Shown here: piece by piece, positions 26,265-29,442 of the stretch
How positions within the stretch are numbered: position 1 is the stretch's first letter
How the letters are laid out: the number at the start of each line of letters is the position of its first letter
Source: Gimesia sp.
Lineage (GTDB): Bacteria; Planctomycetota; Planctomycetia; Planctomycetales; Planctomycetaceae
DNA length: 64,000 bases
Direction: 5' to 3'
Assembly: GCA_002706765.1 (NCBI GenBank)
Contig: PAJV01000062.1
Span: 1-64,000, forward strand
Notes under the pieces: model-generated
Database searches by the model: none
Seen by the model: only the letters and a program-made list of their open reading frames with translations
Told to the model about the DNA's origin: nothing
Position numbers and translations under genes: made by a program

Positions 26265-26279
26265 GAACACTGTTCAGTG
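26265..26279. promoter_or_regulatory. Candidate damage-response operator before the Y-polymerase gene
   Basis: GAACACTGTTC (26265-26275) is a perfect 11-base palindrome overlapping a second palindrome, CACTG-TT-CAGTG (26268-26279), about 35 bases before the polymerase start. It resembles the Gram-positive LexA box GAAC-N4-GTTC but has a 3-base centre, so the assignment is tentative. Confidence 0.4.
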
Positions 26280-26311
26280 GTATTCCATAAATTCTTTGAT
26301 ACCATCCCCGC

Positions 26312-27529
26312 ATGGTTACAACACTCATTGGACATATTGACTCAGATTGCTTCTACGTAAGCTGCGAAAGAATCCGATCTTACAGCCTGCGTGGAGTTCC
26401 CTGTGGCGTGCTGGGCAACCAGGGAGCCTGTGTCATCGCCAAGAGCTACGAACTCAAAGCTTATGGCGTCAAAACCGGGCACCCCATCTGGGAAGCCAAG
26501 AAGCTCTGCCCGCACGCCGTCTTTGTGAAACGGGATTTTCGCTGGTACGAGGTCATTTCCCGGCGACTGCTCGATCTGCTCAAAACCGTCAGCCCCCTCG
26601 TCGAATATTACAGCATTGATGAGATGTTTTTTGATGCCTCCGAGCTTCAGCGGTATTTTCGACTCCCCCTGAAAGCAGCTACCCGGGCTTTGCAAACGCT
26701 GGTTCAGGAGCAGGTCGGCGTCCCGGTCTCCATCGGAATTGCTCCCTCCCGCACCCTCGCCAAGCTGGGCAGTGATGCCGCCAAACCGTTCGGGGTCCAG
26801 ATCATTGAACGAGACTGTGAACCGTTTCTCCGTTCACAGCCTGTGGGGGAACTGTGTGGCATCGGCAGCCGCAGCGAACGCAAACTGCGTGACAGAAATA
26901 TTCATACCTGCTGGGACTATCGCCAGGCGGATCGCCTGCTGATTCGTAATCTGCTCACCATTAAAGGGGAAGCCCTGTGGTGGGAACTGCGGGGTGATGC
27001 GGTCAATCCGATTCAGACCACCCGCCCCCCTCACAAAGCGATTGCCCGTGGCGGATCGTGTGGCGGAAAGACCATGGACGCCGACCGCATTCGTGCCTGG
27101 GCAGTACGAAATATCGAACGCCTGATCGAAGCCCTCGATCATCACCGCGTCTACGCCCGGCACATCAGCCTGCAGATCGACGCCAATAAAACCGCACTCT
27201 GGCTGGGACGTACGCCACTGGCAGTCCCTTCCGCTTCCTTTCGCACGATCTACGATGCCGTCATGCCCATGCTGGCGACGGCCCCGACCACGTACCCCGT
27301 CAGCCACATGCACATCATTGCCGAAAATCTGACCTGGCGGGACCGGATCCAGAAATCGTTATTCTTCGAAGACGCGCAAAGCCCCCTCGACCAGATCAAA
27401 CGGGACATCAATCAAAAACTGGGCCGGTTTGCCATTCGCAGCGCCGAGACACTGCCGCTGCATGAAATCTACCATGACGCAACACACAACTACGACATCT
27501 GTGATATTTCTGGAAAGATGTGCTTCTGA
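26312..27529 (+). CDS. Y-family translesion DNA polymerase (UmuC/DinB type)
   Basis: A 405-residue Y-family polymerase. The first catalytic acids are in GHIDSDCFYVSCE (about 7-19), the nucleotide-contact region in VIAKSYELKAYGVKTG, and the second catalytic pair in YYSIDEMFFDAS (about 97-108). SIGIAPSRTLAKLGSDAAKP and a helix-hairpin-helix thumb (LCGIGSRSERKLRDRNI) follow, then a little-finger domain. The chain has no C-terminal clamp motif that I can recognise. It would copy past damaged bases. Its TGA overlaps the ATG of the next gene (TGATG at 27527-27531), so the two are translationally coupled. Confidence 0.9.
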   Translation: MVTTLIGHIDSDCFYVSCERIRSYSLRGVPCGVLGNQGACVIAKSYELKAYGVKTGHPIWEAKKLCPHAVFVKRDFRWYEVISRRLLDLLKTVSPLVEYYSIDEMFFDASELQRYFRLPLKAATRALQTLVQEQVGVPVSIGIAPSRTLAKLGSDAAKPFGVQIIERDCEPFLRSQPVGELCGIGSRSERKLRDRNIHTCWDYRQADRLLIRNLLTIKGEALWWELRGDAVNPIQTTRPPHKAIARGGSCGGKTMDADRIRAWAVRNIERLIEALDHHRVYARHISLQIDANKTALWLGRTPLAVPSASFRTIYDAVMPMLATAPTTYPVSHMHIIAENLTWRDRIQKSLFFEDAQSPLDQIKRDINQKLGRFAIRSAETLPLHEIYHDATHNYDICDISGKMCF

Positions 27530-27999
27530 TGTGCACCGGGATCACCATTGCCTGGCGGGACATCCCCACCAGACTCATCCAAAAACACCAGCTCGACGAA
27601 CGCATCATCCAGCGCTCGGCAACAGCAGACAAAGAAATCCTGTTCATGCAGAGGCATCGCCAGCCCCTGCTCCCCGTCTTTTACCAGGGAGAACTGCGGA
27701 TCCTTCCCTGGGGTAACCGACAGCGTCACAGCAACGCTCCTCTCGCCTGGTGGTGTGAAGTCGCCACACTCGAATCAGGCGCCTGGTCCATGTATCACCC
27801 CGAACCGGTGGAAATCCTCGCGAACTTCGGCCTGGAACGCGGTGTCTGGTTTCAGATCAGAGAAGGCATTCAAGGCGCAATCATTCACGATCAGCACGAA
27901 CAACCCTGCATCTACATGCTCCTGCAACCCGCGTCCCACTACTACCAGGTGATGACCGGCTATCACCGCGAACCGGTGTTTCTGGGTGAGCAGATTTGA
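27529..27999 (+). CDS. Candidate divergent SRAP (HMCES/YedK-like) abasic-site protein
   Basis: A 156-residue protein starting Met-Cys-Thr-Gly at the ATG that overlaps the polymerase stop. A Cys directly after the start Met is the mark of SRAP proteins, where Cys2 forms a DNA-protein crosslink with abasic sites. Other partial matches: LPWG near residue 60 (SRAP WGLIP region), and MTGYHREPVFL near the end, comparable to the SRAP H-x-R-M-P-V-I-L block with its catalytic His. The usual MCGR and NARxE motifs are changed, so this is an inference. The polymerase-SRAP pairing fits known SOS gene neighbourhoods. If wrong, it is an unknown protein tied to translesion synthesis. Confidence 0.6.
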   Translation: MCTGITIAWRDIPTRLIQKHQLDERIIQRSATADKEILFMQRHRQPLLPVFYQGELRILPWGNRQRHSNAPLAWWCEVATLESGAWSMYHPEPVEILANFGLERGVWFQIREGIQGAIIHDQHEQPCIYMLLQPASHYYQVMTGYHREPVFLGEQI

Positions 28000-28105: not shown

Positions 28106-28966
28106 ATGAACGGATATCGCTTCTACACTGCTACCAGCCTGCTGATGCTCACTGCCTTGTTCACCGCCTGCCAGAAGTCAGCGCCTGCTCCCCAGGAAGA
28201 ATCTGGTGTGAATGCTGAAACCGAAATCATTCCCGAACCCAATGCCGGCTCCGAAAAACCTCAGCTGACGGTTGCTATCAGCGTTGACATTGCTCCTTAT
28301 GTCATGAAAAACGCGACCACGGGCATCGAAGTTGATATCGCCACCCAGGCACTTCCCGGTTACCAGCTCAATTTCGTTCAGATGCCTTATGAGAAACTGC
28401 AGTCAGCGGTCGCCGAAGATCGGGCCGACATGGCCCTGGGAGTACAGAAATTCAAAGACGTCGAAGGGATTTTCTACTCAGACAATTTCATCGACTTTGT
28501 GAACGCTGCCATTACCAAAAAATCAGCGAACCTCAAAATCGAAAAAGTCGCTGACCTCGCCGATCACAAAGTGCTCACCTGGCAGGATGCGTACCTCGAA
28601 CTCGGCCCCGAATTCGAAAAACTGTTCGCTCCCGACAGCCCGCAGCGTAAGAACTACGTGGAAGTCGCCGATCAGAGTGAGCAGGTCCAACAGTTCTGGG
28701 ACGCCAAAGACGCTGTGATTGTAATTGACCGCAGTATCTTCAATGCCATCAGCCAGGCGATGGGACACAAACTAAGTGAAGTCGAATATGCATCCATTTT
28801 CCCCGAAGCCACATATTTCAAAGCCAATTTCGAAGAAGCCGACGTCCGCGACGCCTTCAACGCCGGCCTGAAAAAACTCTGCAGCAGCGGCGACTATGCA
28901 AAGCTGCTCAAAAAACACAAAATCGATCTGCCCAGCACCATCTGCGATTCTAAAGCTCAACCATGA
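28106..28966 (+). CDS. Solute-binding lipoprotein (amino-acid binding family 3)
   Basis: A 286-residue protein with a lipoprotein signal (SLLMLTALFTAC, lipid anchor at the Cys), a Pro/Glu-rich linker, then a periplasmic-binding fold of the SBP_bac_3 type: LTVAISVDIAPYVM, GIEVDIATQAL, QMPYEKLQSAVAEDRADMALGVQK and a C-terminal LKKLCSSGDYAKLLKKHKID. It has the family shape but no permease or ATPase gene beside it, so it may be a sensor or an orphan receptor. AGGAGA lies 8 bases before the ATG at 28106. Its stop overlaps the macro-domain ATG by four bases (ATGA). Confidence 0.82.
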   Translation: MNGYRFYTATSLLMLTALFTACQKSAPAPQEESGVNAETEIIPEPNAGSEKPQLTVAISVDIAPYVMKNATTGIEVDIATQALPGYQLNFVQMPYEKLQSAVAEDRADMALGVQKFKDVEGIFYSDNFIDFVNAAITKKSANLKIEKVADLADHKVLTWQDAYLELGPEFEKLFAPDSPQRKNYVEVADQSEQVQQFWDAKDAVIVIDRSIFNAISQAMGHKLSEVEYASIFPEATYFKANFEEADVRDAFNAGLKKLCSSGDYAKLLKKHKIDLPSTICDSKAQP

Positions 28967-29442
28967 CAGAAATCACTTATTTGAAAGGTGATGCCACCAC
29001 CCCGCAAGCCAGGGGAAATAAAATCATCGCCCATGTCTGTAACGACCTGGGTGGCTGGGGCAAAGGTTTTGTGCTGGCAATCAGTAAACGCTGGCCTGAA
29101 CCGGAAGCAGAATACCGTCATTGGCATCGCCACCGGGCGCAAAACAATTTCGCTCTGGGTGAAATCCAGTTGATCAATGTCGAAAAATATATCTGGGTGG
29201 CTAATATGATTGGTCAGCGCGGCATGAAAACCGGCAGTAAAGGCTCACCTGTCCGCTATCCGGCCATCGAACAAAGCCTGAAATCAGTCGCTGAAAAAGC
29301 CCGGGAACTTTCGGCATCAGTTCACATGCCCCGTATCGGCTGCGGACTGGCTGGTGGAAGATGGGATAAAATTGAGCCACTGATTAAACAAACGCTCTGC
29401 ACCGCAGAGATCGAAGTCTATGTATATGACTTTGACAAATAA
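28963..29442 (+). CDS. Macro-domain (ADP-ribose binding) protein
   Basis: A 159-residue single macro domain. Typical elements are the first strand YLKGDATTP, the NAAN-type loop in altered form IIAHVCNDLGGWGKGFVLAIS, and the phosphate-binding loop PRIGCGLAGGRWDKIEPLI. The CND...GKGF pattern resembles the ALC1-like group (TARG1, Poa1, DarG), some of which remove ADP-ribose from proteins, phosphate or DNA. It is coupled to the solute-binding lipoprotein gene by an ATGA overlap, an odd pair of a periplasmic and a cytoplasmic protein. The substrate is unknown. Confidence 0.88.
   Translation: MTEITYLKGDATTPQARGNKIIAHVCNDLGGWGKGFVLAISKRWPEPEAEYRHWHRHRAQNNFALGEIQLINVEKYIWVANMIGQRGMKTGSKGSPVRYPAIEQSLKSVAEKARELSASVHMPRIGCGLAGGRWDKIEPLIKQTLCTAEIEVYVYDFDK

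Follow-up and report, generated by a model that had tools for sequence, protein, structure and literature searches.

A UmuC-like polymerase paired with a divergent SRAP-like small protein in Gimesia and related planctomycetes

Why do proteins of the SRAP family recur beside the polymerases of the SOS response? SRAP genes have been reported in association with UmuC-UmuD, ImuA/ImuB/DnaE2 or DinB (Aravind et al. 2013, PMC3765255), UmuC-like polymerases have been specifically linked to SRAP-related proteins, and SRAP-like proteins are named among the putative subunits that bind Y-family polymerases (PolY) (Timinskas et al. 2026, Nucleic Acids Research, PMC12926913). A locus that bears on this question lies in a 64,000-nucleotide stretch of DNA (hereafter the window) from contig C62 of the Gimesia-like genome G000, the close relatives of which are metagenome-assembled genomes of Gimesia. 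Here, a gene for a Y-family DNA polymerase is followed by a small gene whose product had been likened, in a first-pass annotation, to SRAP proteins, which crosslink abasic (apurinic/apyrimidinic, AP) DNA through a cysteine at position 2 (Cys2); the annotation supposed a two-gene unit pairing lesion bypass with AP-site protection. We hold it to be reasonably probable that the pair encodes a UmuC-like mutasome in which a divergent SRAP-like subunit stands in the place of UmuD.

The layout described in that annotation can be read directly from the DNA: the polymerase stop TGA (27527-27529) and the ATG of the small gene (27529-27531) have one base in common within TGATG, the small protein begins MCTGITI, and HREPVFL, near its C-terminus, is encoded at 27964-27984. 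That the small open reading frame (ORF) is a real gene is evident from its homologues, which are 65-92% identical within the genus and more distant in other genera, and from the ratio of nonsynonymous to synonymous substitution rates (dN/dS), which is 0.07-0.12 in six of seven Gimesia pairs (the remaining one, L102, is saturated and gave no value, and L101, with a dS of 2.9, is near saturation). Across the phylum, the small protein was found in 14 of 392 genomes by a protein search, with the same 14 returned by a profile search, and all of these carriers except G377 belong to the family of the window. Within that family, a profile search found it in 30 of 170 genomes. The polymerase clade, delimited at E <= 1e-60 (weakest positive 1.1e-128, nothing in between), is present in the identical set of 30, and G398, a genome of the same genus that is 74% complete, has neither gene. 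In all 31 polymerase-linked pairs (the 30 family genomes plus G377 of another family), the small gene is adjacent to, downstream of and co-directional with the polymerase. The two overlap by one base in 22 pairs, or in 21 if L112 is read from MFGI, which leaves a gap of 77 bases, rather than from the start that gives 180 amino acids (aa), neither reading having Cys2; the gaps in the remaining nine are 0, 3, 8, 8, 8, 9, 15, 20 and 61 bases. The coupling of polymerase and small protein is far from chance, and because the 30 carriers among the 170 are identical for the two genes, which are adjacent in every one, the pair looks obligate.

The polymerase matches PF00817 (E = 4.9e-40) and PF11799 (E = 3.5e-8), and its active-site motifs HIDSDCFY and YYSIDE are intact in the translation. 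In a tree of 23 sequences, all 15 polymerases from planctomycetes cluster together (support 100/100) and join three plasmid UmuC-type polymerases on a 100/99 branch; the DinB, YolD-coupled, Geobacter, Roseobacter and Methylophaga polymerases stand apart from the UmuC branch; the planctomycete clade is sister to UmuC. When plasmids were searched with the polymerase, 12 of the 40 matches listed, of at least 5000 records, were labelled umuC or umuD, two more S24 peptidase and most of the others just 'Y-family DNA polymerase'. The C-terminal region carries QKSLF, which we take to be a clamp-binding-type motif, a RecA-NT-like segment that includes GRF and RS[AG]xTL, and a tail of the pattern Y[DE][IV]CDxx[GD]KxCF that ends all 31 orthologues (Table 1). 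Clamp motifs occur in every PolY group except DinP (PMC12926913), the RecA-NT motif class has been described by Timinskas and Venclovas (PMC6511836), and the C-terminus of the window polymerase has the same modular layout as the mutasome polymerases of that study. By analogy with UmuC, the tail of which binds UmuD' (PMC6511836), the conserved tail is proposed as the place where the small subunit docks. In none of the ten genomes checked is the pair flanked by an S24 (UmuD-type) gene, and in the eight of these that were also searched for LexA the strongest S24 matches are the LexA genes.

What, then, is the small protein? It is likely a shortened, divergent homologue of SRAP, as judged from profile alignments and motif order. 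A tblastn search of plasmids revealed relatives in two Methylophaga, two Pseudomonas and one Nitrosomonas record. The M. thalassica protein starts with MCGGAYF and ends with IHSRWP, and a Pseudomonas frame has an MCGCVEV start upstream of its annotated GTG and ends with IHGRWP; MCG is missing from the M. pinxianii copy, and in the Nitrosomonas copy its place is taken by MYGG and nothing like RMPV stands at the end. The plasmid starts are partly uncertain, L073 being annotated from a downstream GTG and L076 from an upstream ATG, and L072 (M. pinxianii) lacking MCG. Phages gave no match to the L074 (M. thalassica) or L021 proteins, and viral contigs gave none with the A3 profile; a single viral-contig match (L075), opposite a long minus-strand ORF, was judged spurious by eye. 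Global hhalign comparison with a canonical SRAP alignment, controlled by 300 column shuffles, scored 18.5 for the profile of plasmid relatives (shuffle maximum 10.6), 16.2 for the whole family (15.7) and 23.5 for a 12-member bridge profile (21.3), the last score being optimistic as the set was chosen after the decoy test and partly for its SRAP-like motifs. None of the 300 shuffles did as well in any of these three comparisons, and local scores were equalled by one or two of 300. Among 246 real decoy ORFs, 1-9%, depending on profile and mode, matched or beat the median SRAP, and the six best non-SRAP ORFs found by the SRAP hidden Markov model (HMM) are members of the family (three distinct proteins). 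The bridge alignment is co-linear throughout: MC aligns with MC, LPV..G.L.I..WG with the stretch before RWG, [WC]..ESL with NARSETV, IPA....[ED] with IPADGFYE, VY.LT.A with CTIITTxA and RMPV with RMPV. The likeness of HREPVFL to the SRAP His block, remarked on at the outset, is borne out in that HREPV against IHxRMPV is the best local match. Homology with SRAP is likely rather than proven because hhalign probabilities stay at or below 26%.

The active site of SRAP has been eroded in this family. In Escherichia coli YedK, the nucleophile is Cys2; of the other residues, Glu105 matters most, followed by His160, and Asn75 has a minor part. The H160A change lowers the rate at least 10-fold (PMC9436759). 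Of these four, Cys2 is retained in 25 of the 31 polymerase-linked homologues and lost in six from three genera (G024, G540, G541, G463, G464 and G413; genera g2, g277 and g281), which start with MFGI, MMGI, MQGV or MDGI; the small-protein tree requires four label changes for Cys2, at least three of them forced, when plasmid rows L072 and L076 are counted. The possibility that the gene overlap itself gives rise to the MC start was rejected, given that nine non-overlapping pairs also begin with MC and the six without Cys2 do overlap (L112 only with its longer start). The position aligned with Glu105, a placement that rests on profile alignment, holds E in 18 (the window included), D in 11 and H in 2; a rival alignment of GIQG with GFYE, in which the Glu would be lost, was dropped since the bridge alignment places Glu105 at E103. 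The residue at the His160 position varies (Table 1), being Tyr in Gimesia and His in plasmid relatives L073 and L074. The H of HREPV lies one column off. The Asn75-aligned position is W in 25, Y in 2, C in 2, F in 1 and N in 1. The two residues that matter most for catalysis are thus retained in most members, and in some the gene pair persists without Cys2. Another cysteine, Cys76 (27754-27756), adjoins the Asn75-equivalent position and is kept in 29 of 31, which makes it commoner than Cys2.

As regards the fold, binding, stoichiometry, DNA binding and function of the small protein, we infer the following arrangement. The two genes would encode a two-subunit translesion polymerase, with a UmuC-like catalytic subunit bearing the clamp-binding motif, the RecA-NT-like motif and the conserved tail. 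Upon DNA damage, the polymerase would be brought to the sliding clamp and to RecA, and translational coupling would supply the SRAP-like subunit at a near-fixed ratio to it. This subunit would bind the polymerase, probably at the YDICDxxGKxCF tail, and bring its SRAP-type DNA groove to the damaged single strand; the role conserved across the family would be recruitment or gating of bypass. Capture of AP sites by Cys2 may persist where Cys2 and the acidic residue are kept, Gimesia included, without being the shared function. The natural differences at Cys2 and His160 among the pairs offer a way to separate a role of the SRAP fold as polymerase partner from its cross-linking role, in organisms without a UmuD gene beside the UmuC-like polymerase.

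Several results weigh against a mutasome with an SRAP-derived subunit. As for UmuD, G463 has a second S24 match (E = 1.7e-14, in a 328-aa frame), so that UmuD elsewhere in the genome is possible; weaker additional S24 matches occur in G000, G385 and G257, and G024 and G377, the two genomes outside the LexA search, have one and three S24 matches in all. Paralogues of the small protein also exist without such a polymerase in the fetched locus. As for SRAP, PF02586 matched none of the 16 members scanned, although E values up to 10 were allowed, and none of three plasmid relatives. The Pfam scan of the window protein was likewise empty, NCBIfam gave one sub-threshold match, a match to Sidestep was taken as chance or repeat, and the only result of a PDB profile search was a spurious repeat match to BLIP-II. 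The planctomycete-only profile was equalled by 283 of 300 shuffles and is not significant, some decoys fall in the SRAP range with the best decoy exceeding the best SRAP in two of six settings, three non-SRAP ORFs rank above the first SRAP in the search with the family HMM, and the low hhalign probabilities and the optimistic bridge score count here as well. AlphaFold2 models had a mean predicted local distance difference test score of 34.2 for the small protein alone and 35.5 with four close relatives, too low for a usable model. The lack of any family match, the low probabilities, the planctomycete-only score and the decoys that outrank SRAPs in the reverse HMM search would all fit an accessory subunit unrelated to SRAP, an analogue of UmuD or YolD with a fold of its own whose MC start and RMPV end are convergent; small accessories of other origin, YolD and ImuB-C, are indeed known or proposed (PMC6511836). 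We nevertheless consider such convergence quite improbable, as it would have to produce the co-linear MC, LPV/WG, ESL-NARSET, IPA....E and RMPV blocks at none of 300 shuffles and the combination of MCG and IHxRWP in two plasmid relatives, and it disagrees with the literature, in which the proteins linked to UmuC-like polymerases are classed as SRAP-like (PMC12926913).

If the protein is an SRAP relative, it might instead be an active AP-site cross-linker, in which Cys2, once the Met is removed, forms a thiazolidine with AP sites in single-stranded DNA and shields them during bypass of other lesions by the coupled polymerase. The prevalence of Cys2 among the polymerase-linked homologues (25 of 31), the MC start of paralogues L077 and L081, of L074 and, with its upstream start, of L073, and the Glu or Asp that 29 of 31 have where Glu105 aligns speak for this. 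Yet six homologues in three genera have lost Cys2 with the gene pair kept, the tree with its plasmid rows implies the four changes mentioned above, the place of Cys2 is taken by Tyr in L076 and by Ser in L078, and the equivalent of His160, the loss of which is costly to YedK, is missing in 28 of 31. We regard this cross-linker reading as unlikely; the divergent SRAP coupled to a Y-family polymerase remains the best reading, on the strength of the profile alignment and the conserved pair. The AP-crosslinking part of the first-pass annotation stands only in part, and homologues that lack Cys2, which that annotation had named as counting against it, make up six of the 31. A passenger gene, regulatory or selfish, that is stabilised by the overlap and has no role in translesion synthesis is a very improbable reading. 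Separate paralogues and truncated copies elsewhere in Gimesia genomes would suit a passenger, but the shared set of 30 carriers, the adjacency kept without overlap, the purifying selection and the pairing with another polymerase lineage behind lexA all run counter to it.

That other lineage is found in Methylophaga. In M. thalassica (L074), the gene order is lexA, polymerase, SRAP-like gene, hypothetical, ssb, hypothetical, and the SRAP-like gene overlaps the stop of the Y-family polymerase. The approximately unbiased test rejected a common lineage of the planctomycete and Methylophaga polymerases (AU p = 1.5e-5, with the caveat of long branches), and the best-scoring other sequence for the Methylophaga polymerase, within the best 60 of 212 plasmid records, is that of Geobacter. 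It is possible, if somewhat doubtful, that the SRAP fold was recruited as a UmuD replacement apparently more than once, by UmuC-like polymerases in planctomycetes and a non-UmuC one on a Methylophaga plasmid, and that the AP chemistry then decayed, so that some lineages, in which Cys2 and the acidic residue remain, may go on trapping AP sites and others have purely non-covalent subunits. Were this true, the family would illustrate in natural examples the passage from a cross-linker of DNA to a subunit of a polymerase. In M. pinxianii (L072), a type I restriction gene lies upstream of the SRAP-like gene in place of the polymerase.

The closest described system is the PolY-SRAP-like association of PMC12926913, with which the window pair has in common a UmuC-like polymerase, an SRAP-related partner and a RecA-NT motif (assigned by eye in the window). 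Representatives of all 11 module types were modelled there above the authors' thresholds; we take the PolY-SRAP-like module to be among them, and the window pair most likely belongs to it. The passages of that paper on the association name no taxa for it, no planctomycete example and no active-site residues, and a literature search, which did not extend to its supplements, found no report of the erosion of Cys2, His160 and Asn75 in such SRAP-like partners or of an SRAP-like pairing with a non-UmuC polymerase behind lexA. Like SRAP proteins proper (E. coli YedK, human HMCES; PF02586), the window family shows a Met-Cys start in most members, the same block order, an acidic residue at the Glu105 position, the RMPV block and an SOS-polymerase gene context; it differs in length (about 140-156 aa versus 220-260 aa), in the lack of a Pfam match, in that Cys2 is not invariant, and in the loss of Asn75 and mostly of His160. 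UmuC-UmuD has the same polymerase branch, clamp-like and RecA-NT-like motifs, C-terminal tail and adjacent small partner gene, but the window partner is not S24/UmuD and lies downstream, whereas umuD is upstream in two plasmid examples. YqjW/UvrX with YqjX/YolD (Paenibacillus plasmid example) likewise has the gene of a small partner immediately after that of a Y-family polymerase, although that polymerase is outside the UmuC branch and no sequence link of YqjX/YolD to the window partner was found. The GeoPolY lexA-imuB-C-polY operon (PMC6511836; Geobacter example) also has a LexA-linked polymerase with a standalone accessory; its ImuB-C domain of ~80 residues (PMC3765255) bears no resemblance to the small protein by eye, and an ImuB-C identity was rejected, the 85-aa Geobacter frame differing in length and motifs. 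To UmuD, YolD and ImuB-C the pair adds one more kind of small partner, adjoining a polymerase with a conserved tail.

Table 1. Positions of the gene pair and its sequence features in the window
Feature	Position	Strand	Basis or remark
Conserved promoter element CTGTTCAGTGG	26270..26280	+	genus consensus CYGTWCASTRG
UmuC-like Y-family DNA polymerase, 405 aa	26312..27529	+	PF00817, PF11799; tree placement with UmuC types
QKSLF clamp-binding-like motif	27350..27364	+	Q-x-[ST]-[LF]-F in 27/31 orthologues
RecA-NT-like motif LDQIKRDINQKLGRFAIRSAETL	27386..27454	+	GRF core in 31/31 (30 by pattern, L105 by reading); assigned by eye, not by profile
Nearly invariant polymerase C-terminal tail YDICDISGKMCF	27491..27526	+	candidate docking site for small subunit
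TGATG stop/start overlap	27527..27531	+	read from sequence
SRAP-like small protein, 156 aa (MCTGITIAW...HREPVFLGEQI)	27529..27999	+	homologues; profile-profile match to SRAP
Cys2 codon (TGC)	27532..27534	+	Cys in 25/31 polymerase-linked homologues
Glu103 codon, aligned with YedK Glu105 (IPAxxxx[ED] to IPADGFYE)	27835..27837	+	bridge alignment
Tyr145 codon, aligned with YedK His160	27961..27963	+	Y 16, N 7, S 5, H 3 (n = 31)

Upstream of the polymerase, the palindrome GAACACTGTTC (26265-26275, 36 bases before the ATG) had been likened to a LexA box; it is present in the window and is not conserved, occurring in 2 of 16 Gimesia promoters. The core CYGTWCASTRG is found in all 16 Gimesia upstream regions, and its extended pattern occurs once in the genome of the window at up to three mismatches. 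Upstream of 12 lexA genes, this core was not found beyond chance (best 2-4 mismatches; 77-300 of 300 shuffles). Among promoters of other genera, 3 of 14 contain GAAC-N4-GTTC; such palindromes lie a few tens of bases upstream of the polymerase in L111, L112 and L114, and those of L111 and L112 are located between TTGACA and a -10-like box, an operator-like position.

Copies of the small gene outside the pair comprise the paralogues L077, L081, L078 and L080 (genomes G389, G048 and G385), of which L077 and L081 start with MCDA, one starts with MSDS and one is partial, and remnant-like C-terminal fragments of ~40-80 aa in Gimesia G069 and G048 (L019/L079, L020/L082, L022/L083), two of which adjoin the same ~470-aa gene. 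The genome of the window carries a separate canonical SRAP on contig C24. In G534 and G535 (L066:718-1512, L067:883-1512), a canonical-type, divergent SRAP gene (MCHRF..., FNSRSET, KRMPVIL) is convergent to the pair with overlapping 3' ends, placing a canonical-type SRAP beside an eroded one. In the window itself, a macro-domain protein (PF01661, E = 1.6e-5) is encoded at 28963-29442, ~1 kb downstream of the pair.
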